A stretch of 64,000 nt of DNA from Vicingaceae bacterium (GTDB lineage Bacteria > Bacteroidota > Bacteroidia > Flavobacteriales_E > Vicingaceae). The position numbers were made by a program, and so were the translations under genes. Numbering within the stretch: the first letter of the stretch is position 1; each line of letters opens with the position of its first letter. Shown one piece after another: positions 38,040 through 52,260 of this stretch. The stretch is taken from positions 1 through 64,000 of the forward strand of contig JAOKVV010000007.1 of the NCBI GenBank assembly GCA_028336925.1, given 5' to 3'. The notes under the pieces are model-generated. The model did not search any database and had not been told where the DNA came from. It saw nothing but the letters and a program-made list of their open reading frames with translations.

Positions 38040-41000
38040 TTATTTAATAATCAGTTTTTCAACTTTAACACCATTATCATTAATCAATCTTACGAAGTAA
38101 AGACCTCTTTCAACATTTAAGTTGATGTCTTTGCTCAGAGAACCATTGATGTTTAGATTTTCAGAATAAACTATCTGACCATTAATGTTAACTACCTCAA
38201 TTGTTGAATTAAGTGCTGTTACATTTTCAATCTGTAATTTAAACTGTCCATCATTTGGATTCGGATAGAATGAGATGATTGCATTGTTTTTTACAACATC
38301 ATTAATCCCAACACATACTGTAACAGTAACATTAACTGTATCTGTTGCTGTACATCCATTTGCGTCCATTACTGTTACGATATACTGAGAATTAGCAGTA
38401 GTTGGCGTAATCATCTGGGTAGTATCACCTGTATTCCACATATATGATGCAAAAGCACCTGCATCTAGCATAAATCCGTTTGTATCACATACAATTGTAT
38501 CGGATCCTAAGTCTACTGTTGGTGCAAAAACAACATCGGTGTAACGCATTGGGAAAATTTGATATCCACTAGTGTAAGGATTTGAATTGTCAAATTGACC
38601 TCCAATACCATTAACTGAGCAAATAACGTCACCAACCGTGAATGTTAAACTATCTAATACATCAGTATCAGAATCAATCCTCATAGTGAAAGTGTTAGTT
38701 CCATCAAACAAATCAATGTTTTTAGATGAACCACTTGGAACGTTGGTTACTGTTAAGTTCTCCATTCTGATTAACTGAGATTCTGTTGTCTCATCTAATG
38801 AAGTAACTAATGTATGTGCAGGTAAAGATGCATTTGTAGAAATAATCATGATCGAATCAGGGAATAACTCAGTTAATCCATTATATTGATCAATATAACC
38901 TCTTACCATTATGGAATCACCTTCATTAACTACATAATTACTAACATCTGTAAAATTGTAGATATTAATTCCTTCAGGAGTCGATCCTGATTGATCAATG
39001 ATAGTGAAAGAAATACCATTATTACCATCTAAATCTATACCTGCAACTGTACCTGATGTAAAGCAAGTAACGTTTAATGAATCTGCAACACCTGTAGTTG
39101 CATCAACTGTGTTAATTGTTCCAATTGGGTAGTAAGGAACTGGTGCAGGTGGGTTTCCAAATTCTACATAGTCAACATAGTATGTTTCTGAAGCAGTTGG
39201 GGATGTACCAAAATTATAGAAAATTGACATTTTGTTGTAAGTACTTGCAAAATTAATTGCAGGTGTATTAGCAACATTTAAAGTCATATCAAAATTCAAA
39301 GTATCCCATCCATTGGCTACCGTAGTTAACACTTCTGATTCTACACTAATTGTTCCATTGTTGTAATCTTCAACTTTTAATCGAACAGGTGTACCTGCTG
39401 AGGGAGAATAAACTACCGCTCTTATGGTTGTATTTCCTGTTGAGAATGGAATTGCTGTAGACAATGAATCTCCTAGAGTTGTACCTGCCCAAACTTGAGC
39501 TCCAATTCCTTTGATAGATTGTAATACAAGATTAGTAGCATTTGTTGGATCAGCTACTAAAGCAGAAGCGTTACCACCAAAATCTATTGTACTGTAGTTA
39601 ACATTCGTTGTATCATCCCAAGTTATTGGTAAAGCAATTACTGCTTTAGTTGGAGCAGGCGGTCCTGCATTTACACTTACGTCCTCTACATAATCTACAT
39701 AATATGTTTCTGCAGTAGTCGGCGAAACACCGAAATTGTAAAATATTGACATTTTATCGTAAGTGTTTGCAAAGTTAATTGCTGCTGTACCTACAATATG
39801 ATTGCTAAAGTTAAAACTTAAAGTATCCCAACCGTTAGCAACAGTTGTATTAACAGCTGTTTCAACACTTATTCCGGGATTTGTTTTATCTTCAACTTTT
39901 AATCGAACTTCAAGATTTGCTGCAGGAGAATATACAACTGCTCTAATAGTAGTAGTACCTGATGCAAATGCAATTGGAGTTGCTAAAGAATCTCCTAAAG
40001 TTGTACCTGCCCAAACTTGAGCACCAATACCTTTGATAGATTGCAATACCTTATTGGAAGCATTTGTTGGATCTGCTACTAAACTAGAAGCATTTCCACC
40101 GAAATCTATCGTAGTGTAATCAACATTAGCTGTATCATCCCAAGTTATTGGTAAAGAAATTGGTGATAATGGTGTTACTTCAATAGTATAATCTTCAAAA
40201 GAAGCCCATGTTCCTGTATAGCATGGAGTTGGAGGTCCAACATCTGCACCACCAATTCTCATTCTATATTGTCCAAGAGGCACATTTGAAGGTACATTCC
40301 AATTTGCTGTTAATGTAGTTGGATTAGTGCTTAACGATACTCCTGAGTACACATTTTCTAATGTGTCATCAAAATCTAAATCATTATTCCAATCCACCCA
40401 AATTTCAGTTGTGTATGTATATCCTGTTGAATACGTAATGTCAATTGAAACTGGGCCTCCAATTTTAACTGCACCAATTAAGTTGGTATAATCTGCATAG
40501 TTTCCTGGTTCTGCACCTGTTGTATTATTTACCGTATCAAAAGATACATTTGTAATACCACTTCCGTCAACTGAAGCAGGTGCAGGAATACAATATCCTG
40601 TGTAAAAAGAAGATTGGATCCTCATTGTGGTGTCTCCAGCAGAGCATATAGCTCTTACGTACCAATCATAATTAGTATTAGCGGTTAAGCCTGTAAGACT
40701 AGCATTTGTTGCTGAAACAATAACAGAAGTACCTGTACCTAATACAAACCCTGCTGTATCGTATTCTAACTCAAAGGTTGCTGTAGGGTTAATATCAACC
40801 CAATTTAAATCAACCGAAGTTTGAGTTAAGTTAGCAATAGATGGGGAAGAAGGTTGGAAACAACTAGGAGGCATTCCAAGACTAATGTCGTCAATTCCTA
40901 AATCTCCTGTAAAGCTACTACCTGCAACTCCTACAAATTTCAACTGGATTAATTTTCCTTCTAATCCATTAATTAGGTGAGCATCTAATCTCCAAGCATC

Positions 41001-44000
41001 AGATTGATTAGCCTGTTGTTGACCTGTAAATGAACTAATAGGAATTAGCGTTCCATTTGTATCTACAAAAACTTCTAAGGCACCCATTGAAGCACCATAC
41101 ATATGATACCAATATTCAAGATAAACTGTCGTATCATTTGGACCTAAAAAGATCTGAGGTGATACAAGCGTATCTGAGTTTCCTTGAGTTGATCCAGAAG
41201 TTTCAAGGTATACAAATGTTCCTCCTGCACCAATTGTGTGGTCAGCAGCAGGTCCTGTACCTGAAGAACCTGTGGATGATCCTGATTGAAATCTAGGATT
41301 AGTCGCAGCTGTTCTCGTCCACCCATTTGTTCCAATTGAAGAACTAGTTCCAAAAATTTCGAAATCCTCCATAAATGGCACTAATTCAGGAGCTGTAAAT
41401 TCAACTGCACCAATATCAGGTGTGGTTGTGCTTCTTGGATTTCCATTAATATCAGTCGTTAAACCTGTTACAGGAGTTCCCTTATTATCCAATGAGTCAG
41501 ATAGTGGAGTAAGATCATTGGGTACATTAATAAACATTGGGTCATCGCTAAGTGAGTTAACGTTTAAAGTAGCATTTGCTGATTGAAAAGCTGCTAAATC
41601 CGTATAAACAGGGATTCCAAATTTAACGAGATTTGAACCACTAGTATAGAAAATATTGTAATCCATGGTAATTGGGTTTCCATCTAAACCATAAAATGCA
41701 TAATCCCCACCATTACTACTGAAAATATTATTACTAATGTCAAGATTAACATCATCGTTAAGGTAAATACCATAATCCGATGCAGAGGTTGTGTTGTGAT
41801 AAACGTTTATTTCTTCTACGTCATCTAGATATAAACCATCATCACCGCCTATAAAGATATTGTTAGCAATTAGTGATTTAGTGCTAACTGTATTATCATA
41901 GTTGTAATCATTACCTTCTAATCCATTGTCATTTCCCTTAAATCGGTTACCCGTAATAGTAAAGTTTTCAAGATCTGAAGAGTACATTCCATCACTAAAA
42001 GAACTGTTTAAACCATCGACAAAATTATTAGTAATTGTTACGTCGTTGTAACCTACTGTGTATAATCCATTATCATCTGCATCTCTAATAACATTATTAT
42101 TAATGGTTAAAGTTTGACTTCTTGCAGCAGCATTGTAGTTCCCATAAACAGATATTCCCCTTTCACCACCTGTTACCAAGTTGTTTGAAATAGTCAAACT
42201 GTCAACATCTGATGTATTATTATCAGAAGTTTCAAGACCTGAAATCATAATACCTGCAACATCTGAAGATGTTCCCACAGGCATTGTTATTATATTGTTA
42301 TCGATAATGATATTATTAGCTCCATTCCATATATGAATACCCCACTTATCAAAGCCAGTACCCGCAGAAACATCAATAGTCATATTTCTAATCGTAAGAT
42401 AACTGGTTCCATCAAGGTTAATAGTTGAAGCTCTGATTGATTGATCATGTGTTACAATAGTATTAACAGCATTACCTCCATCTAATGTAACTGTGTTTGT
42501 TGCACTAGCCCCAGGTATCGAACCAAGGGATACTTGATCATTGTAGGTGCCTGCAGCTACATTTACTGTTACAGGGCCTGATACGCCAATATTGGCAATT
42601 AAATTGGTAAAATCTGCAAAACTTTGAAAGTTAGTACCTCCTGTAGCAACTGCAGAATCAATAGTAAATGTTCCACTCATTGGAAGTCCAACAAAGAAGT
42701 TATTAGCATCACTCCAATCACTGCTATCATTTACTCCACAGATACTTCTTACATACCAATCTAAAGAACTATAAGTTGTAAGACCTGCTAAAGTGTATGG
42801 ATTAGTAATACTAGTAGATACTCTTGTACCTGTTCCTAAAGTAAATCCGGTAGTTCCGTATTCAATTTCCCATGCAGTAGCAGAACCATTTTCTGTCCAT
42901 CCTAAAGTTGCAGCAGTGTTAGTAATGTTACTTGCGGATAAAGATGTTGGTTTTGGACAAGTAACACAAGAGGTAACTTCTACAAGATCAATTGCCATAT
43001 CACCTGTGTAACTAGCACCCCTTGTACTTTTAAATTCTAAATAGATTTGCTGACCTAAGTAGGTATCTAAATTAACTCCAACATTCACAAAAGGATCCGC
43101 TTGATTTGCTTGAACTTGACCACTGTAAGTAAATACATTGGTAAATGGTCCGGAAGCTGAAGTACTAACACCAACTTCAAGTGTTCCCATTGTTGCTCCA
43201 TGTGCATGATACCAAAAAGATAGTTCTGCACCTGATGTAGCCGATGATAAATTTATCAATGGGGATACAGCTGATGTTGTTGCGCCTAATGACCCCGAAG
43301 AAGTTTCAGTATATAAGTAATTTACTCCACTATGCGCAGTGTTTGGACCTGTACCTGAAGAGCCAGTTCCATTTGCATCATAAATCCATCCAAATCCTGA
43401 AGTAACAGTTCCTGTCCAACCACCAACGGTTTCGAAATCGTCAGAAAAATATACTTGTGGACCACCGACTGTACAATTTACTCCTTGTGCAGATTGAATC
43501 AACGTTGTAAATGTAGCTGATGTTGACCAAGGACTAGTATCCCCAACTGTGCAAATACTTCTAACTGTCCAATCGTAGGAGGTAGCGCCTGTTAAACCGC
43601 TTAAAAAAGCAGATTGGCTTGAAGCCATCATTTTAGTTCCTGCGCCCGGCGTGTAACCAGTAGGACCATATTCAAATTGCCAAGAAGTTGCTGTTCCAGC
43701 TTCTGTCCAAGAGATACTTGCAGAGTCTGAAGTAATGTTACTTGTAGCAAGAGATAATGGCTCAGGGCACATTGGTACAGGGCTGTAATAAGCAACAACT
43801 TCCCATGTGTTGTTAACTACATAATTATAAGTTGCACCGCAACCCGTACCTCCATAAGTTCTTCCTAATTCTAATTGAATAAGAACTGTACCTACAGCGC
43901 CATTTGCAAACGTAAGGCCTGTTCTTGAATAAAGTGATGTTCCACCTGAATTTCCAAGACCATTACTTAGCGTTGCTTCTGCAGAATTAGTAGTTGAAGA

Positions 44001-44285
44001 GGATAATCTAGAACGCTGCTCCGACATCCAACCGCCGCCTGCTGCTGTAAAATCGTAAGAAGTAGAAATACTGTCAATTCTATTTCCCGGTGGAATTACT
44101 AACGTAACGGATCCAGGACAACTAGAGCTGCCCGAGCTTGATGTAAAGGAACGATCTGAATCTATATTCCCTGTTTGATAAGTAGCACAGACTGCCCCCG
44201 GAGGACACTGAGCCTTTGAATTGTTAATACTCGCTATAAACCCGACAAATGCGACGATAGCGTAGAAAAAAGTACTTTTCTTCAT
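38040..44285 (-). CDS. Giant multidomain T9SS surface adhesin
   Basis: 2081 aa with signal peptide. Order of domains: N-terminal beta domain; FnIII modules (ASISWTEAGTATSW; TAATLGWTENGSATAW; later SVDLNWVD) alternating with two MAM/jelly-roll-like modules; a right-handed parallel beta-helix (about residues 560-900, many TISNN/ITNN turns); and a GEVED-type module (YTTEIWVDWNNDLDFDD). Two 174-residue tandem modules follow, then an OB-like module, a PKD/Ig-like module with MWNTGDTTQ and a type A sorting domain (ISFYPNPNDGQFKLQI to VEKLIIK). It is a secreted, cell-surface protein; ligand unknown. A matching promoter lies 80 bases upstream. Confidence 0.88.
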   Translation of the reverse strand: MKKSTFFYAIVAFVGFIASINNSKAQCPPGAVCATYQTGNIDSDRSFTSSSGSSSCPGSVTLVIPPGNRIDSISTSYDFTAAGGGWMSEQRSRLSSSTTNSAEATLSNGLGNSGGTSLYSRTGLTFANGAVGTVLIQLELGRTYGGTGCGATYNYVVNNTWEVVAYYSPVPMCPEPLSLATSNITSDSASISWTEAGTATSWQFEYGPTGYTPGAGTKMMASSQSAFLSGLTGATSYDWTVRSICTVGDTSPWSTSATFTTLIQSAQGVNCTVGGPQVYFSDDFETVGGWTGTVTSGFGWIYDANGTGSSGTGPNTAHSGVNYLYTETSSGSLGATTSAVSPLINLSSATSGAELSFWYHAHGATMGTLEVGVSTSASGPFTNVFTYSGQVQANQADPFVNVGVNLDTYLGQQIYLEFKSTRGASYTGDMAIDLVEVTSCVTCPKPTSLSASNITNTAATLGWTENGSATAWEIEYGTTGFTLGTGTRVSTSITNPYTLAGLTTYSSLDWYVRSICGVNDSSDWSDANNFFVGLPMSGTFTIDSAVATGGTNFQSFADFTNLIANIGVSGPVTVNVAAGTYNDQVSLGSIPGASATNTVTLDGGNAVNTIVTHDQSIRASTINLDGTSYLTIRNMTIDVSAGTGFDKWGIHIWNGANNIIIDNNIITMPVGTSSDVAGIMISGLETSDNNTSDVDSLTISNNLVTGGERGISVYGNYNAAARSQTLTINNNVIRDADDNGLYTVGYNDVTITNNFVDGLNSSFSDGMYSSDLENFTITGNRFKGNDNGLEGNDYNYDNTVSTKSLIANNIFIGGDDGLYLDDVEEINVYHNTTSASDYGIYLNDDVNLDISNNIFSSNGGDYAFYGLDGNPITMDYNIFYTSGSNLVKFGIPVYTDLAAFQSANATLNVNSLSDDPMFINVPNDLTPLSDSLDNKGTPVTGLTTDINGNPRSTTTPDIGAVEFTAPELVPFMEDFEIFGTSSSIGTNGWTRTAATNPRFQSGSSTGSSGTGPAADHTIGAGGTFVYLETSGSTQGNSDTLVSPQIFLGPNDTTVYLEYWYHMYGASMGALEVFVDTNGTLIPISSFTGQQQANQSDAWRLDAHLINGLEGKLIQLKFVGVAGSSFTGDLGIDDISLGMPPSCFQPSSPSIANLTQTSVDLNWVDINPTATFELEYDTAGFVLGTGTSVIVSATNASLTGLTANTNYDWYVRAICSAGDTTMRIQSSFYTGYCIPAPASVDGSGITNVSFDTVNNTTGAEPGNYADYTNLIGAVKIGGPVSIDITYSTGYTYTTEIWVDWNNDLDFDDTLENVYSGVSLSTNPTTLTANWNVPSNVPLGQYRMRIGGADVGPPTPCYTGTWASFEDYTIEVTPLSPISLPITWDDTANVDYTTIDFGGNASSLVADPTNASNKVLQSIKGIGAQVWAGTTLGDSLATPIAFASGTTTIRAVVYSPAANLEVRLKVEDKTNPGISVETAVNTTVANGWDTLSFNFSNHIVGTAAINFANTYDKMSIFYNFGVSPTTAETYYVDYVEDVSVNAGPPAPTKAVIALPITWDDTTNVNYSTIDFGGNASALVADPTNATNLVLQSIKGIGAQVWAGTTLGDSLSTAIPFSTGNTTIRAVVYSPSAGTPVRLKVEDYNNGTISVESEVLTTVANGWDTLNFDMTLNVANTPAINFASTYNKMSIFYNFGTSPTASETYYVDYVEFGNPPAPVPYYPIGTINTVDATTGVADSLNVTCFTSGTVAGIDLDGNNGISFTIIDQSGSTPEGINIYNFTDVSNYVVNEGDSIMVRGYIDQYNGLTELFPDSIMIISTNASLPAHTLVTSLDETTESQLIRMENLTVTNVPSGSSKNIDLFDGTNTFTMRIDSDTDVLDSLTFTVGDVICSVNGIGGQFDNSNPYTSGYQIFPMRYTDVVFAPTVDLGSDTIVCDTNGFMLDAGAFASYMWNTGDTTQMITPTTANSQYIVTVMDANGCTATDTVNVTVTVCVGINDVVKNNAIISFYPNPNDGQFKLQIENVTALNSTIEVVNINGQIVYSENLNINGSLSKDINLNVERGLYFVRLINDNGVKVEKLIIK
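39164..40160 (-). repeat. Two tandem 174-codon modules within the adhesin
   Basis: Two copies offset by exactly 522 bases, each running from LPITWDD to ETYYVDYVE. They share stretches such as LQSIKGIGAQVWAGTTLGDS identically and long near-identical DNA blocks, while loops differ. This points to tandem duplication of a lectin- or CBM-like jelly-roll module. Confidence 0.85.
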
Positions 44286-44711: not shown

Positions 44712-44739
44712 TTGAAAGAAAAAAACATTTTTAGTTTTG
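44712..44739 (+). promoter_or_regulatory. Full promoter before the T10-tract gene
   Basis: TTG at 44712-44714, 17-base spacer, TAGTTTTG at 44732-44739, 20 bases before ATG 44760. It supports transcription of the upstream, out-of-frame signal peptide. Confidence 0.62.
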
Positions 44740-44759: not shown

Positions 44760-45259
44760 ATGCTGTATAAAGTATTTATAACTATTTTTTTTTTAGTTGT
44801 TTAGTAACAAAAGCGTTTAATTCAGATTCTCTAAGTTTAAAGCTTAAAGGGGAAATTTTAATCCAAACTGATGAGCCTTCAATTTGTGATATTTATTTAT
44901 ATCGAGGTAATGATTTGATCGATAGTATTAAATCTTCTGCAGCAGGTATATTTGAAATAGATGTTAAATTAGGATATAATTACACCTTAGAAATTAGTAA
45001 GCCTGGATTTTATTCAAAAAGGTTTTGTATAAATGCAGAGGTAGATGACATTAACACAAATTTCCCTAATTTTGAGTTTATATGTGAAATGTTTCATAGA
45101 AACAATGAGATAGAATATACTATTTTAGATTTTCCTGTAACAATTATCCAAGTAAATAAAAAGAAGGAAGAATTTGAATACAGTAAATCTTATACAAAGC
45201 ACATTAATAAAAAACGAAAAAGTCTTAATCAAGAAATGTCACAAAATTTTGAATTCTAA
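44760..45259 (+). CDS. Small exported CarboxypepD_reg-like protein, signal peptide out of frame at a T10 tract
   Basis: The track lists only the 3' part (from TTG 44915), but the same frame is open back to 44771 and encodes NSDSLSLKLKGEILIQTDE, continuing into a carboxypeptidase-regulatory-like beta domain (GIFEIDVKLGYNYTLEISK). ATG 44760 starts MLYKVFITIFF, a typical signal peptide, in another frame. The two frames join if the run of ten T at 44785-44794 had eleven (MLYKVFITIFFFSCLVTKAF). As sequenced, translation from the ATG stops after 14 codons. Roughly 165 aa if joined. Function unknown; possible phase-variable or slippage-expressed surface/periplasmic protein. Confidence 0.55.
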
Positions 45260-45421: not shown

Positions 45422-47230
45422 TTATTTTATCCGGATTGCTCGAATTTCAATTTTTCTACTTTTTATTGCATCATATAAGTAGATAGAGTTTATATCTTCA
45501 TTGTATTGATCTTCTTGACCTTCACCTAATGCTTCTTTCTGTAAAACTAATTGGCCTTTATCTATAAAAGGTATAAAAGCACCGTTATCATATTGTTCTA
45601 AGGTTTGAACAAAGCTATTTATTCTTCTTTGACTTAATGAGTAGTTATAATCCTTATCGGCAAGGGAACTCGAAAACCCCTGAATTAATAAAGTGATGCT
45701 GTCGTTATTTGATAACTCACTTTTCAAAAATTTAAATATTCTTAATAAATAGGTTTCACTCAATAGAGACCATTCAAAAAAGTCTTCGATTTCATCATGA
45801 TTAATAATAGAAGTCGCTGTCTTTTGAAGGTATTCATTTTTCTTGTTTTGGTAGTTATCTAGTAATTGGAAATAAGTCTTTGTGCTTATGTTTTCATTCT
45901 CTGAAAACTTTGGTTGGTCATTGTCAAAGTAAAGTGTGATTGGGAAATAGTTTTCTAAAGAGTCAATTTGAGGGTTGTTTTTTAAAGAATCTACTTTATA
46001 AAACAATAGGTCGTTACAACAAAAACCATTTAACAAAGAATTGTTTGATAAACGATTACTAGTTAAAAAGTAGGTATTGTTGTTAATAGAAAAGTAAAGA
46101 TCGTTTAAGGGCGAGTTTACTGCACTAAAATTCTTAACCTCATCAACATGATTGAATAAATCCGTATTTACACTGAAAACATCAAATCCACCTTTGTTTG
46201 CGTGCCAATTACTTGAAAAATATAATGTTCCCGATAAGTAAAATGGTGTTAATTCATCACCTGGGGTATTAATTGTTGATGGCAGTAATTTAGGGGTTTC
46301 ATAATTGCCGTTGTTTACTTTACTCGCCCATAAATCATAACCACCCAAACCGCCCGGCCTATTAGAAGAGAATATTAAAAAACTTTCATTATTTACCTCT
46401 GCTATGGTGGGCTGAGTATTTGTGAATCCATTTTTTTGAAGCGACTTGACGATGGTAAATTGCATGCTTTTTGTAGTATCAAATTCTGTATAGGCAATAT
46501 TGCAAATACCATTGGTGTCACAAACACTAAAATAGAGTAGATTTTTGCTTTTTAAATAAAATGGATTAGCTATTTGATAAACAGTTGCATCAATACCGAA
46601 ATTAAGTTCTTTTCCCTTTGTCCAGCTTTCATTGACTTGGATGGTTTGATAAATTTTACTTTTGATGTTTTCTCCTTTGGAATTTACTGCAGCATATAAG
46701 CCTAATTGATCCGCAATTGAATAAAATGAATATTCTGCATTTTCAGAATTAACACCTGTTCCAAAGGATTTGAAGGGAATTATCTCCCCTTCCGCTTGAA
46801 GCGCGAATTCACAGGACGTAAGGTATTGTTTTATAAGCTGGTAAGAGGAGCTTTCCTTTTTTCTTCTGAACGGGGTGAGTGCTCTTTGGTAGTATCTTTT
46901 CGCATTTCTATAGTCTCCTAATTGGTTGTAAGATAGAGCTATTAATAAACTAACTTGAGTGAATTTTCTATCTCTATCAGTATTGTAAATTGGTTTTAAT
47001 AGGGATACAGCTTTATTAAAATTGTTTACCTCAAAATAGGATTTGGCTAGTAAATAGCGAGCTCGTATTTCATTAGGGTAAACCTTAGTAAAATCTTTAA
47101 GTAATTCAATAGTAGATATGTATTCTCCTTTTGAGTATGCCTCGTTGGCTAATTGAATAACTTGTTTCTTATTTTGAGAATAGACAAATGAAAAGATAAA
47201 AAAGAATATAAAAGTAAGTTTTATCTTCAT
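45422..47230 (-). CDS. PorE-like TPR/WD40/OmpA outer-membrane protein
   Basis: 602 aa. Signal peptide ending FSFVYSQ, three or so TPRs (about residues 20-150), a PD40/WD40-like propeller (FSSNRPGGLGGYDLW near 300; LYFSSNWHANKGGFDVF near 345), and a C-terminal OmpA-like peptidoglycan-binding domain with NYSLSQRRINSF near 540. This architecture (TPR, WD40, OmpA) is that of PorE, which links the T9SS outer-membrane complex to the cell wall. No CarboxypepD_reg domain is obvious between the parts. It ends the operon with the SprF-like and type B CTD genes. Confidence 0.82.
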   Translation of the reverse strand: MKIKLTFIFFFIFSFVYSQNKKQVIQLANEAYSKGEYISTIELLKDFTKVYPNEIRARYLLAKSYFEVNNFNKAVSLLKPIYNTDRDRKFTQVSLLIALSYNQLGDYRNAKRYYQRALTPFRRKKESSSYQLIKQYLTSCEFALQAEGEIIPFKSFGTGVNSENAEYSFYSIADQLGLYAAVNSKGENIKSKIYQTIQVNESWTKGKELNFGIDATVYQIANPFYLKSKNLLYFSVCDTNGICNIAYTEFDTTKSMQFTIVKSLQKNGFTNTQPTIAEVNNESFLIFSSNRPGGLGGYDLWASKVNNGNYETPKLLPSTINTPGDELTPFYLSGTLYFSSNWHANKGGFDVFSVNTDLFNHVDEVKNFSAVNSPLNDLYFSINNNTYFLTSNRLSNNSLLNGFCCNDLLFYKVDSLKNNPQIDSLENYFPITLYFDNDQPKFSENENISTKTYFQLLDNYQNKKNEYLQKTATSIINHDEIEDFFEWSLLSETYLLRIFKFLKSELSNNDSITLLIQGFSSSLADKDYNYSLSQRRINSFVQTLEQYDNGAFIPFIDKGQLVLQKEALGEGQEDQYNEDINSIYLYDAIKSRKIEIRAIRIK

Positions 47231-47231
47231 T

Positions 47232-48242
47232 TTACATAAAATTAGGACACTTAGTGCCTCTTTTATAGTGTGGTTTATAATTGTTAATCAAATGAACAAT
47301 TGATATTTCCAATCCACCTTTATTGTTATTCGCTTGGGTCAAGTCTGATGTTCCAATATCATAACTAAAGGAAAGGGATGTTTGGGTTAATTCTAAACCG
47401 ACATTTATTATTGCTGCATCCTTATTTCTATAAAAAACACCTCCTGTTATTGCTTTTCTAGCGTACCTCGTTTTTTCAAAGTAATACCTTAAATTGCTTC
47501 CTATAATAACTTCTTGTGCTTTCCCTTGTTTCATAAACAATACACTTGGTTGAATATCAATAAGCTGATTTACTAGAAATGTTGATGAGAAATGATAGGC
47601 AGTTCGCATTTCTAATTGTTGATCTTCAAGTTGTAAGAAGCTATTTTTAGGCCGCAGTAAATTGTGAAATGCAATTCCGAATTTTATAGCATTATCAGAA
47701 TTTATAGCATAATTAATATGAGATCCTACAGATGGATTGAAATAGCCAAAAGATTCACTGTTAAAGTTTTCGCCATTTGGATTATTTGGATTGTACGAAT
47801 TACCAACATATTGCTTGTCAAATGAAAAGCTGTTTACATCTACTTTAACTTGCTGATAGGAAAGTCCGGCGCCAATACTTACCGATAATGTAGAATCATA
47901 ATTTAAGTTTTGTGAGTAATTGAAATTTATAGCGAAATTCGATTGTGTTAAGTTTTCCGATCCTGCTTGATCCTGAAACAATAGTAATCCGTAGCTAATT
48001 CGTTTTACTTTAAATAAATTTTTACCTTCTACAGAAAAGGAGTAGGTTTTATAACCTTCTCCAATAGAACTCCATTGATTTCTAAAATTTCCAACTAGTC
48101 TGTATTTAGCATTAAAATTTCCGGTAAGTGAAGGATTTAAATTTAATGGAGATTGGTTGTATTGCGAAAAATGTATGTCCTGTCCCACCAAGGGATGGAA
48201 AAGTGTAATTAGTAAAATGAATATGTAGTATTGTTTCTTCAA
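47232..48242 (-). CDS. PorP/SprF family T9SS outer-membrane protein
   Basis: 336 aa from a TTG start one base after the upstream stop; that start is needed for the signal peptide. After the signal comes the family N-terminus GQDIHFSQYNQSPLNLNPSL, followed by FRNQWSSIG and strand-rich barrel sequence. PorP/SprF proteins are needed for secretion and anchoring of type B CTD cargo, such as SprB with SprF in Flavobacterium johnsoniae. Its position between the giant type B CTD protein and a PorE-like protein fits a dedicated export unit. Confidence 0.9.
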   Translation of the reverse strand: MKKQYYIFILLITLFHPLVGQDIHFSQYNQSPLNLNPSLTGNFNAKYRLVGNFRNQWSSIGEGYKTYSFSVEGKNLFKVKRISYGLLLFQDQAGSENLTQSNFAINFNYSQNLNYDSTLSVSIGAGLSYQQVKVDVNSFSFDKQYVGNSYNPNNPNGENFNSESFGYFNPSVGSHINYAINSDNAIKFGIAFHNLLRPKNSFLQLEDQQLEMRTAYHFSSTFLVNQLIDIQPSVLFMKQGKAQEVIIGSNLRYYFEKTRYARKAITGGVFYRNKDAAIINVGLELTQTSLSFSYDIGTSDLTQANNNKGGLEISIVHLINNYKPHYKRGTKCPNFM

Positions 48243-48243
48243 T

Positions 48244-51200
48244 TTATCGAATTAATGTAACATCTCCTTTACTAAAATAGGTGGTTCCATTATAGCAGAT
48301 TGCCTTTAGTTGGTAGGCATAAACTGCAGGTGGAGCATCTTCACCTTTGTATTTCCCATTCCATCCAATATCTATATTGTTGGTTTCAAATACTAATTCT
48401 CCCCATCGATTAAACACTTGAAAAGTTAATTCTTTGATGTTAGGGCCACGAACGAAAAGTTGATCATTTGTACCGTCATTGTTTGGAGTAAATGCGGTAG
48501 GAACAAAAACAAAAGGATCAGCGCATTGGTCGTCATGTACGGCCAATCGCAGCTCTCCATTATAGGTGCAACCTGTAGAATCGTCTAAAATACTAAGGGT
48601 GTATAAAGTGTCATAAAGTGCTTTAGTGTATGTGCTGGCATTAAAAGGGGTTTCAACTAATTGCTCGGGCTTCCATCGATATTGGAAGTAAGGTTCTTGT
48701 ATATCTGAAGTGAGCAATATTGTTTTACCTAAGGGAACAGTGTCTTCTGCCGTAAAGGGAAATAATTGATTCACAATTGGTGGGTTCACAATAACTTTAA
48801 CTGAATCTTCAAAACGACACCCTTCATCTGTGTAAAGATCTAAGTGGTAAGTTGTGTTTTGATCTGCATTGATTAATATGGAGTTTGATGTATCAGAACC
48901 AAGAATAAAATTTGATGGGCTCCAGATATAAGTAACATTGTTTGAGCTGCTTGAAACATTTGCAACTATTCTAATCGTATCCTTTAAGCATTTCTTTATC
49001 ACATCCTCTAGCGTAACATTCAAGCTAGGTGCAGTTATGACAAAAGAAATTAAGGTATCGCAATTTTCATTACTCGCTTTTAAATAGTAAGCTTTTGTTG
49101 TTTGAATATTGGAGATAAAAAGGGTAGAAGTAGTTGTAATGGTGTCGCTTAAGTTTGAGGAGTTGGACCAAATGTAACGATTCGCCGTGCCATTATCATT
49201 GGGCGTAATGATAATATCTCCACCGTTACAGACAATAGAATCTCTTAAATTATTTATTTTAACTGATTGATAAACTTCAATTGAATCACTATAGACAGAG
49301 TCTGTAGCACAGTTGAAATTAAAAGCTTTTAAATCAATGGTATACTTACCTTGAGAATGATACGTAATTCGAGGATTTATTTGGCTGGAGGTGATGCCAT
49401 TGCCAAAATCCCATAAAAGAGAGTCATAATTTTCACTTAAGTCAAAAAATTGAAAAGTTGCAGGCATACACAAAGCAGAGTCTGCGATTACGAATTGTGG
49501 CTTAATAACCCGGTTATAAACAACTATGGTATCATAAGCACTGCATCCAAAACCTTTAATTCTAGCATAATATGTCGTGGTCGTATCCGGTTTTACTGTT
49601 ATTGAATTAGATCCTTTTGGATTAATTCGATTTGTAAATTTATTATTTACACTCCAAACTACGTCCTCTACGGTTCCTGTATAGTTTGGAATTAATACAA
49701 TACTATCTGAATTACAAATCGTAGTGTCATTTAAAGGAGTTACTTGGATGTCGTTGCTGAAAACATAAATGTTCTTTATTGTTGTATCGGAAGAGCCGCA
49801 TATAGAATCTCCAACAATTAGCTGCACAGGATATAGCCCTGGTTGTGTATATGTAATTGATATATTTTTATTAATCGAATCAATTTGTCCATTGCCATAA
49901 CTCCAAATAAAAAATTCATTGCTTCCAAGTTCTGTTTCAAAGTTTACAACACTTGGTGCACAAACACTATCATCATCTACAGTTATTGTGGCAGTAGGCA
50001 AAACTTCTAAAGATATTTTGAAAAGAGCATTAGAGCAAGATGGGGATACATTGACAGGGAAAAGTGGATTACTCAGTTGGAAATCATTTCTATTTCTGCA
50101 ATCAGCACAAACCGATTGGTAAATTATTCCATCTTGATTAAATCGACTTGTTCCACCATCTACATGATCGCTAGTTCCCGGTCCTCCACCAAAAAAAGAG
50201 GCAAACTCCAAGCTTTGTGCATCTTTAGAGAGTACCATAAAATAGAAATTATATCCATGAGTGGTGCTTTTAAATGCATCAGATGTAATTGGCATTTGTG
50301 AACTTAAAGGCTGAGTATTTACTCCGCCTGCAAGTGTATTACCCCATCCGGTGAGGTAAATGTTCTGACATCTATCTACTAGAAATGCTGTTGGAGATAG
50401 ATCAATATTTCCTGACCCAAGTTGGCTTCCGACTGTGGTAGAAAATATAGAAGAGGTTAGATTTTGATTAAACTTTATAATGAATTGGCCGGCATTTGCA
50501 TTAACATAAGGGGCATTTTTTACAGGGAAATTACCTCCTGCGCTATGGCCAAACGCATAAACGTCATCATATCGATCAATTTCTACAAAAAAGGATTGAT
50601 CATAACCATTAGTTCCTACAAAAGTCCCTGCAGAAAGTGAGCTTCCATCATTTGAAATTTTTAATACATATCCATCAGAAAGACCACCATTAAAATTAGA
50701 TTGAAAGGAGGATGTCACGCTACCTAATGAAAAGTCATTACTTGCAGTTCCTCCTGATGCATAGACTTCTCCTACTGAATTAAACTTAACCGAATACCCC
50801 GCATCGTCATCGGTTCCTCCAAAGTATGAACTCCATAAAATGCTATTTAGCTGTTGATTCATTTTAATAACGATGATGTCCTGCTCCCCAAATGAGCTAT
50901 CATTCAGTGCGTTTACCATTGGAAAATCAGTAGAAAAAGATGAACTAACGATAAAAACATTTCCATTTGCATCTACATTAATCTCTCCTCTTGCTTGGTC
51001 GCCATATCCATAGAGTAGTCCATTGTTATAAGCTGTTCCAACAGAGTTTGAAACTAAATTTAGACCATCATTTTCACTTCCCCCCAGGTATGTGGAAGCA
51101 AGGAATTGGGTACCATCCGCACTTATTTTAGCTACAAAAATGTCTGAGCCTAAATTAAAGAATTGTATTGCACTGACTGGTGTTCCTCCATTAAATGACG

Positions 51201-52260
51201 TATCTATTGCATTTACAGATGGTAAATCAGTTGAGCTAGTCGTTCCAAAGAAAATAAGTTCATTTTGGGCGTTTACTACCATACTATGAATCATTTCTGT
51301 TTCATTTCCGCCGTAGTAAGTTGTATAGATTAGCGATTGCCCATCGGTTGAATATTTTGAGATGGCTACATCAACAGTTCCTCCATTGTATGAACTGTCT
51401 GCAAAAGATGCAGGAAAAGGATACCCTGCGCCATAAATAACTCCGCCTGTATATCCATTACCAAACTCGTCATAAGTTGCTGTCATTCCAAAGTTATTTA
51501 ATGTGGCACCTGAGAAAGTTGAAAATATCAATTCGGGGTCAATAATTAACTCAAATTGAGCATTGTACTCTTTCGGGAATTCAAAAGTAACGGTGTCATT
51601 GTTTACATTAAAATTACAGGGTATTTCTATTTTAGTGTTGTTAATAATTTGATATGCATAGGGCTTTATTTCAATTAATTGACCTAAGGTATGTGTTAAA
51701 ACTAAGTGCTCATCTACAATATCTATCTTTTCATGACCTGAATAATATGTTTTTATAGATTTTGGATTGCCTGAGGGCTTCACTATGTAGTCGTATTTAA
51801 TGGAAGAGTTTTCAGCTTTGTATAGCTTTAAATCAATGTTTTTATAAATGGAGGAGTAAATGACTTCATTAAATGATTTAGCTTTTGAGGCCCATTTGTT
51901 TTTATCCTTACCTAGGTAATAATTGTGGTAAGTTTCCGATTTTGCAGAACCTATTATAGTTGCTTTTTCGTTAGCAGAGATAAACCTACTTCTTATTGCG
52001 CTTTCTTTAAATATGGGCTTTTTTATCAGTTCATTTTCTTGACCGTCTGGGTGAGTATGCCCTCCAAATTCAAAAAAATGATAAGTAAAGCCACCATTTT
52101 CTACGTACAAGGCTCCATTAGTTGTGTTAGCTTTGAAGTCAACAAATGAAGGCCATTGTCCTTTATTCTCTACAAAAAGTCCACTCTGAGCAGCTAAAAT
52201 ATTGATAGATAGAATTAATGCAGTAGCGCAATAGAAATAAAGAGGATGGTTTTTAAACAT
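48244..52260 (-). CDS. Giant T9SS cargo with beta-propeller repeats and type B C-terminal domain
   Basis: 1338 aa. Signal peptide, an N-terminal GLFVENKGQWP segment (DUF7948-like, common before SBBP repeats), then SBBP-type beta-propeller repeats (WSSYFGGTDDDAGYSV, STYLGGSENDG, and others) over roughly residues 240-720. PKD-like modules follow (LWDFGNGITSSQINP), and a gliding-motility type B C-terminal domain starts FVPTAFTPNNDGTNDQL. It is exported by T9SS. First gene of a three-gene operon with SprF-like and PorE-like partners. The ligand or role in motility is unknown. Confidence 0.88.
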   Translation of the reverse strand: MFKNHPLYFYCATALILSINILAAQSGLFVENKGQWPSFVDFKANTTNGALYVENGGFTYHFFEFGGHTHPDGQENELIKKPIFKESAIRSRFISANEKATIIGSAKSETYHNYYLGKDKNKWASKAKSFNEVIYSSIYKNIDLKLYKAENSSIKYDYIVKPSGNPKSIKTYYSGHEKIDIVDEHLVLTHTLGQLIEIKPYAYQIINNTKIEIPCNFNVNNDTVTFEFPKEYNAQFELIIDPELIFSTFSGATLNNFGMTATYDEFGNGYTGGVIYGAGYPFPASFADSSYNGGTVDVAISKYSTDGQSLIYTTYYGGNETEMIHSMVVNAQNELIFFGTTSSTDLPSVNAIDTSFNGGTPVSAIQFFNLGSDIFVAKISADGTQFLASTYLGGSENDGLNLVSNSVGTAYNNGLLYGYGDQARGEINVDANGNVFIVSSSFSTDFPMVNALNDSSFGEQDIIVIKMNQQLNSILWSSYFGGTDDDAGYSVKFNSVGEVYASGGTASNDFSLGSVTSSFQSNFNGGLSDGYVLKISNDGSSLSAGTFVGTNGYDQSFFVEIDRYDDVYAFGHSAGGNFPVKNAPYVNANAGQFIIKFNQNLTSSIFSTTVGSQLGSGNIDLSPTAFLVDRCQNIYLTGWGNTLAGGVNTQPLSSQMPITSDAFKSTTHGYNFYFMVLSKDAQSLEFASFFGGGPGTSDHVDGGTSRFNQDGIIYQSVCADCRNRNDFQLSNPLFPVNVSPSCSNALFKISLEVLPTATITVDDDSVCAPSVVNFETELGSNEFFIWSYGNGQIDSINKNISITYTQPGLYPVQLIVGDSICGSSDTTIKNIYVFSNDIQVTPLNDTTICNSDSIVLIPNYTGTVEDVVWSVNNKFTNRINPKGSNSITVKPDTTTTYYARIKGFGCSAYDTIVVYNRVIKPQFVIADSALCMPATFQFFDLSENYDSLLWDFGNGITSSQINPRITYHSQGKYTIDLKAFNFNCATDSVYSDSIEVYQSVKINNLRDSIVCNGGDIIITPNDNGTANRYIWSNSSNLSDTITTTSTLFISNIQTTKAYYLKASNENCDTLISFVITAPSLNVTLEDVIKKCLKDTIRIVANVSSSSNNVTYIWSPSNFILGSDTSNSILINADQNTTYHLDLYTDEGCRFEDSVKVIVNPPIVNQLFPFTAEDTVPLGKTILLTSDIQEPYFQYRWKPEQLVETPFNASTYTKALYDTLYTLSILDDSTGCTYNGELRLAVHDDQCADPFVFVPTAFTPNNDGTNDQLFVRGPNIKELTFQVFNRWGELVFETNNIDIGWNGKYKGEDAPPAVYAYQLKAICYNGTTYFSKGDVTLIR

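Follow-up and report, generated by a model that had tools for sequence, protein, structure and literature searches.

In Citrobacter rodentium, the gene tssM1 is broken at a homopolymer of about ten bases (A11), and its longer product arises via one added base; the A11 run rescues tssM at ~20-25% (PMC4256274). Two arrangements of dnaX around such a tract are already known, one from Thermus (PMC1088944) and the other a two-ORF dnaX with 10 A (Antonov et al. 2013, PMC3711429). Runs of 9A and 9T are slippage-prone in bacteria, and nine-T runs are held equal to A runs (PMC1088944). Contingency loci with homopolymers include poly-A p78 of Mycoplasma fermentans and poly-G/C genes (cited in PMC3711429).

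Here we describe a gene with a run of ten T (T10) in the window, a 64,000-nucleotide stretch of DNA from an Acidiluteibacter-like bacterium. Like tssM1, this gene is broken at a homopolymer of about ten bases and would give a longer product via one added base; however, both products and the slipped transcripts were measured for tssM1, whereas the window T10 lies in a signal peptide, gives a 14-residue product and is known from sequence alone. The tract has the same length as that of two-ORF dnaX (A10), for which Thermus thermophilus dnaX (A9) is the companion comparison, and the direction of the shift is that of 10 of the 30 dnaX genes in the family. In contrast to T10, which was seen once and in a dispensable gene, the A9-A11 run of dnaX is conserved across the family and is used to make an essential subunit pair. 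With contingency loci, the gene shares a homopolymer near the 5' end, an exported product and a frame that is out by one base; it differs from them in that the tract is not conserved, the gene was lost in a sister species and no length variants are known.

The genome that holds the window (G000) is a fragmented assembly of 1.75 Mb in 63 contigs, ~70% complete. Together with Acidiluteibacter ferrifornacis S-15 (G001) and the Vicingaceae MAG M30B7 (G002), it makes up one genus of three genomes, and the species of the window is represented by one genome in all comparisons.

The interrupted gene and its surroundings

The features of the locus, with the evidence for each, are as follows.

44712-44739, + strand: candidate promoter TTG-N17-TAGTTTTG of the Bacteroidota -33/-7 type (sequence; element aligned with A. 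ferrifornacis)
44760-44804, + strand: start ATG and signal-peptide frame MLYKVFITIFFLVV with its stop codon (sequence; hydrophobic core comparable with the A. ferrifornacis signal peptide)
44785-44794, + strand: T10 tract, the meeting point of two frames, including the heptamer T_TTT_TTA at 44789-44795 (sequence, pattern search)
44795-45259, + strand: mature domain in the -1 frame, predicted to be a small exported protein, distantly CarboxypepD_reg-like (transthyretin-type beta-sandwich) (homology, Pfam)
45422-47230, - strand: TPR/OmpA-like protein, convergent neighbour and last gene of a type IX secretion cassette (synteny in A. ferrifornacis and M30B7)
47232-48242, - strand: PorP/SprF protein, cassette member (annotation, synteny in the same two genomes)
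48244-52260, - strand: CHU_C/PKD adhesin, cassette member (annotation, synteny in the same two genomes)

A reading of the sequence made without database searches (the sequence-only reading) had proposed that an ATG and a signal peptide stand out of frame with the mature domain at T10, and that the ORF track hides the upstream part of the gene; both claims were borne out. The frame of ATG 44760 reads MLYKVFITIFFLVV and is ended by TAG 44802-44804, giving an unshifted product of 14 residues, whereas the -1 frame is stop-free from 44771 to TAA 45257-45259. Because the mature frame has no ATG, GTG or TTG before TTG 44915, the ORF track lists only its last 114 aa. We also looked for a start codon of the mature frame upstream of T10 and found none; TAA 44768 closes that frame, leaving only a non-standard ATT. 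The 154 stop-free codons of the -1 frame have P ~2e-7 in random sequence of the same composition, and relatives encode the same protein; the open frame is more than chance. An A/T run of at least nine bases stands at the frame junction, with the shift direction that gives the longer product, as in programmed transcriptional slippage. The tract also lies near the 5' end and its length sets the reading frame, as in contingency loci, and the window copy carries one break relative to the intact A. ferrifornacis ortholog, as in a pseudogene.

Homology shows that the sequence downstream of the tract belongs to a genuine gene, which encodes a distantly CarboxypepD_reg-like exported protein. The closest homolog of the mature domain (37% identical) is encoded in A. 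ferrifornacis by an ordinary ORF of 168 codons, which has its own start codon and signal peptide and no T tract. Neither the window copy (15.2 bits) nor this ortholog (25.1 bits) reached the curated cut-off of Pfam PF13620 (CarboxypepD_reg; 32.3 bits), and the window protein is only a distant relative of that family. Related proteins are present in all 46 genomes of the bacterial family. Between the window and A. ferrifornacis, identity at codon positions 1, 2 and 3 is 0.54, 0.67 and 0.42, respectively, which is coding-type conservation, highest at position 2 and lowest at position 3.

The sequence-only reading had called the upstream region a full promoter. The element TTG-N17-TAGTTTTG at 44712-44739 agrees with the Bacteroidota promoter consensus; however, matches of this type are common (18 in the window vs ~11 expected). 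Better support comes from the TAnnTTTG element within it, which aligns with TACTTTTG in the intact A. ferrifornacis gene and is gone in the M30B7 pseudogene. A promoter at this position is therefore plausible only.

Orthologs and the age of the break

The same neighbourhood, comprising the CHU_C/PKD adhesin, PorP/SprF and TPR/OmpA-like genes and a small gene convergent to the last of these, is found in all three genomes of the genus. In M30B7, the syntenic copy of the small gene is a pseudogene that has lost its start and carries frameshifts and many stops in every frame, while the adjacent secretion cassette is intact. The sequence-only reading had itself named degenerate sequence in relatives, together with an absence of length variation, as a refutation of its proposal; the first half of this test is borne out by the wrecked M30B7 copy. 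The T10 arrangement is not conserved, as the tract is absent from both the A. ferrifornacis ortholog and the M30B7 pseudogene. Given its loss in M30B7, the gene is dispensable in the genus. Plain in-frame stops are seen in two further members of the protein family, from G037 and G032.

On the other side of the T10 gene, and divergent from it, window positions 38040-44285 encode a 2081-aa type IX secreted protein (MAM, fn3, beta-helix, GEVED, Por_Secre_tail). In A. ferrifornacis, the equivalent position is occupied by a secreted protein that is Por_Secre_tail-like.

Cassette proteins of the window genome and M30B7 are 50-77% identical, and fourfold sites between the two genomes are saturated (~0.65 different). 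The probability that the -1 frame would survive 0.1 substitutions/site of neutral drift is 0.06 when stops alone are counted and 0.0006 with indels, for which a rate of one per ten substitutions was assumed. Considering these values and the coding-type conservation, the frame was kept by selection until recently, or it is partly expressed; the break is either recent or incomplete.

Homopolymer runs and dnaX in the family

We surveyed homopolymers in the window genome by a pattern search, together with the stretches around every run of at least nine bases. Across the 1.75 Mb, A/T runs of at least nine occur at 48 separate places; three of these are runs of ten and none is longer. The three are the window T10, an A10 in dnaX and, downstream of a rhodopsin-like gene (G000:C9:18470), the U-tract of a terminator whose hairpin was recognised by eye. 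Within ORFs of at least 80 codons there are 19 other A/T runs of at least nine, and all 19 are in frame. An A9 on another contig (C12, L057), suspected of marking a second broken gene, proved to lie at the ordinary end of a gene, after which an rfbC-like gene comes next.

A paralog of the same exported family on contig C23 (G000:C23:96007-96015) has T9 directly after its ATG, in frame; its orthologs in A. ferrifornacis and M30B7 are without T9. This paralog adjoins a type III pantothenate kinase gene. Only two genes were found with a coding-strand T run of at least nine in the first 15 codons, and both belong to this one small family; in other exported genes, the start is followed by A9 (L051, L063). 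The pairing of T10 and T9 in one family is suggestive, and was noticed after the fact. The sequence-only reading had suggested a look for the same arrangement in other exported genes; among the leaders of 30 related loci, 28 of them readable, there was no other frame break at a homopolymer. Apart from that of the T9 paralog, these 28 leaders hold no run of at least nine, although a T8 occurs in one and an A9 lies immediately before the start in one. Of six further stop-flagged members that were read, two contain plain in-frame stops, and in no case does a break fall at a long run. A DNA scan of viral contigs identified no other copy of the tract, and a first scan of genome contigs using the single protein identified no relative.

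In dnaX, a run of A9-A11 was present in all 30 family genomes read (A10 in 28), at codon 361-366 as counted from a conserved N-terminal motif in the 30 genes. In 20 of them tau continues in the frame of the run, and neither of the other two frames stays open for more than seven codons; the remaining 10 have a template frame that ends one codon past the run, and insertion of one base is needed to read on into tau. An insertion of this kind would also connect the halves of the window gene. Members of a single bacterial family thus differ in which of the two arrangements they have, yet all retain the tract. The copy in the window genome (contig C34, L044:1501-1510) is A10, a length shared by the three independently assembled genomes of the genus. 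Since a run of ten A sits at the dnaX frame junction across the family, slippage by a polymerase is a plausible event in these bacteria.

Explanations of the interrupted frame

The explanation that we favor, with about even confidence, is that a hypermutable tract has recently suffered a frameshift, in an exported-protein gene that is dispensable and that probably leaks some full-length protein via RNA polymerase slippage. The reading frame would have shifted by one base within a poly-T run of the signal-peptide codons. Faithful transcripts of T10, presumably the majority, would encode the 14-residue peptide and no protein, whereas a slip of RNA polymerase by which one U is gained would bring the mature domain into frame with the signal peptide, so that a minority of full-length protein is probably still produced. 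Because the gene is dispensable in the genus, early and leaky decay appears most likely, rather than a selected switch. The data show the frame arrangement, the homology and synteny, the loss in M30B7 and the recency of the break, whereas slippage at T10, the amount of product it yields and the lack of a selected role are inferred. Against this account of decay, the dnaX case concerns an A run and speaks for selected slippage there rather than for slippage at the window T10, and pure decay would leave the T9 in the leader of a second family member as an unexplained coincidence. The earlier interpretation was right about the break in frame, the signal peptide and a tract that is prone to slippage, and dnaX makes slippage plausible; no length variant supports the switch.

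Assembly or sequencing error, with a true tract of another length and an ordinary, intact gene, is possible but unlikely. Homopolymers of this length are the commonest place of single-base errors, and T10 falls in this class; the genome is fragmented and incomplete, and the protein, signal peptide and promoter element are otherwise fully intact. However, the 19 in-frame coding runs and the equal length of the dnaX tract in the three genomes of the genus indicate that the assembly is not generally wrong at homopolymers, and we reject a general homopolymer error as the sole cause.

Phase variation by slipped-strand mispairing, in which the T run would change length at replication and turn the exported protein on or off, was a candidate explanation in the sequence-only reading. 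That T10 sets the frame is upheld, and the run is of the longest class in the genome, in the leader of an exported-protein gene whose frame is otherwise intact; the T9 after the ATG of the C23 paralog, one of only two such genes found, also fits. Nevertheless, no length variant supports it from the one genome of the species, the T runs are missing from the orthologs of both genes, the T9 paralog is alone among the 28 readable leaders in having a run of at least nine, and the gene has decayed in M30B7. We regard phase variation as improbable. A wider proposal, that homopolymers in the leader control a small exported family (T10 out of frame, T9 in frame), with export flipped or metered by slippage of DNA or RNA polymerase, strikes us as a slim prospect.

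Programmed transcriptional slippage, in which T10 would be kept out of frame and a set fraction of transcripts would yield the exported protein, has a precedent in the family, as the dnaX frame junction falls at a ten-base run and 10 of 30 genes need the shifted frame for the longer product. Neither relative in the genus has the T10 arrangement, however, and the 14-residue unshifted product is without evident use; we consider this explanation very improbable. Ribosomal -1 frameshifting at T_TTT_TTA (44789-44795) would fit the phase of the heptamer and the direction of the shift, but the heptamer is not conserved in relatives, no downstream stimulatory structure was found (z-score -0.02) and U_UUU_UUA is far weaker than A_AAA_AAG as a frameshift site in E. 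coli (PMC5009743), which leaves it the faintest of chances.

If full-length protein is still made, the T10 gene would illustrate how slippage of RNA polymerase can soften a frameshift in nature, in a lineage that has the same trick fixed in the essential dnaX, and it would show how long homopolymers can delay gene loss. It also serves as a warning that genes of this type lose their start in the output of ORF callers. If length variants exist, a free-living member of the Flavobacteriales would have a contingency locus in this gene; likewise, homopolymer control of the exported family, if true, would amount to a contingency system in such an organism.
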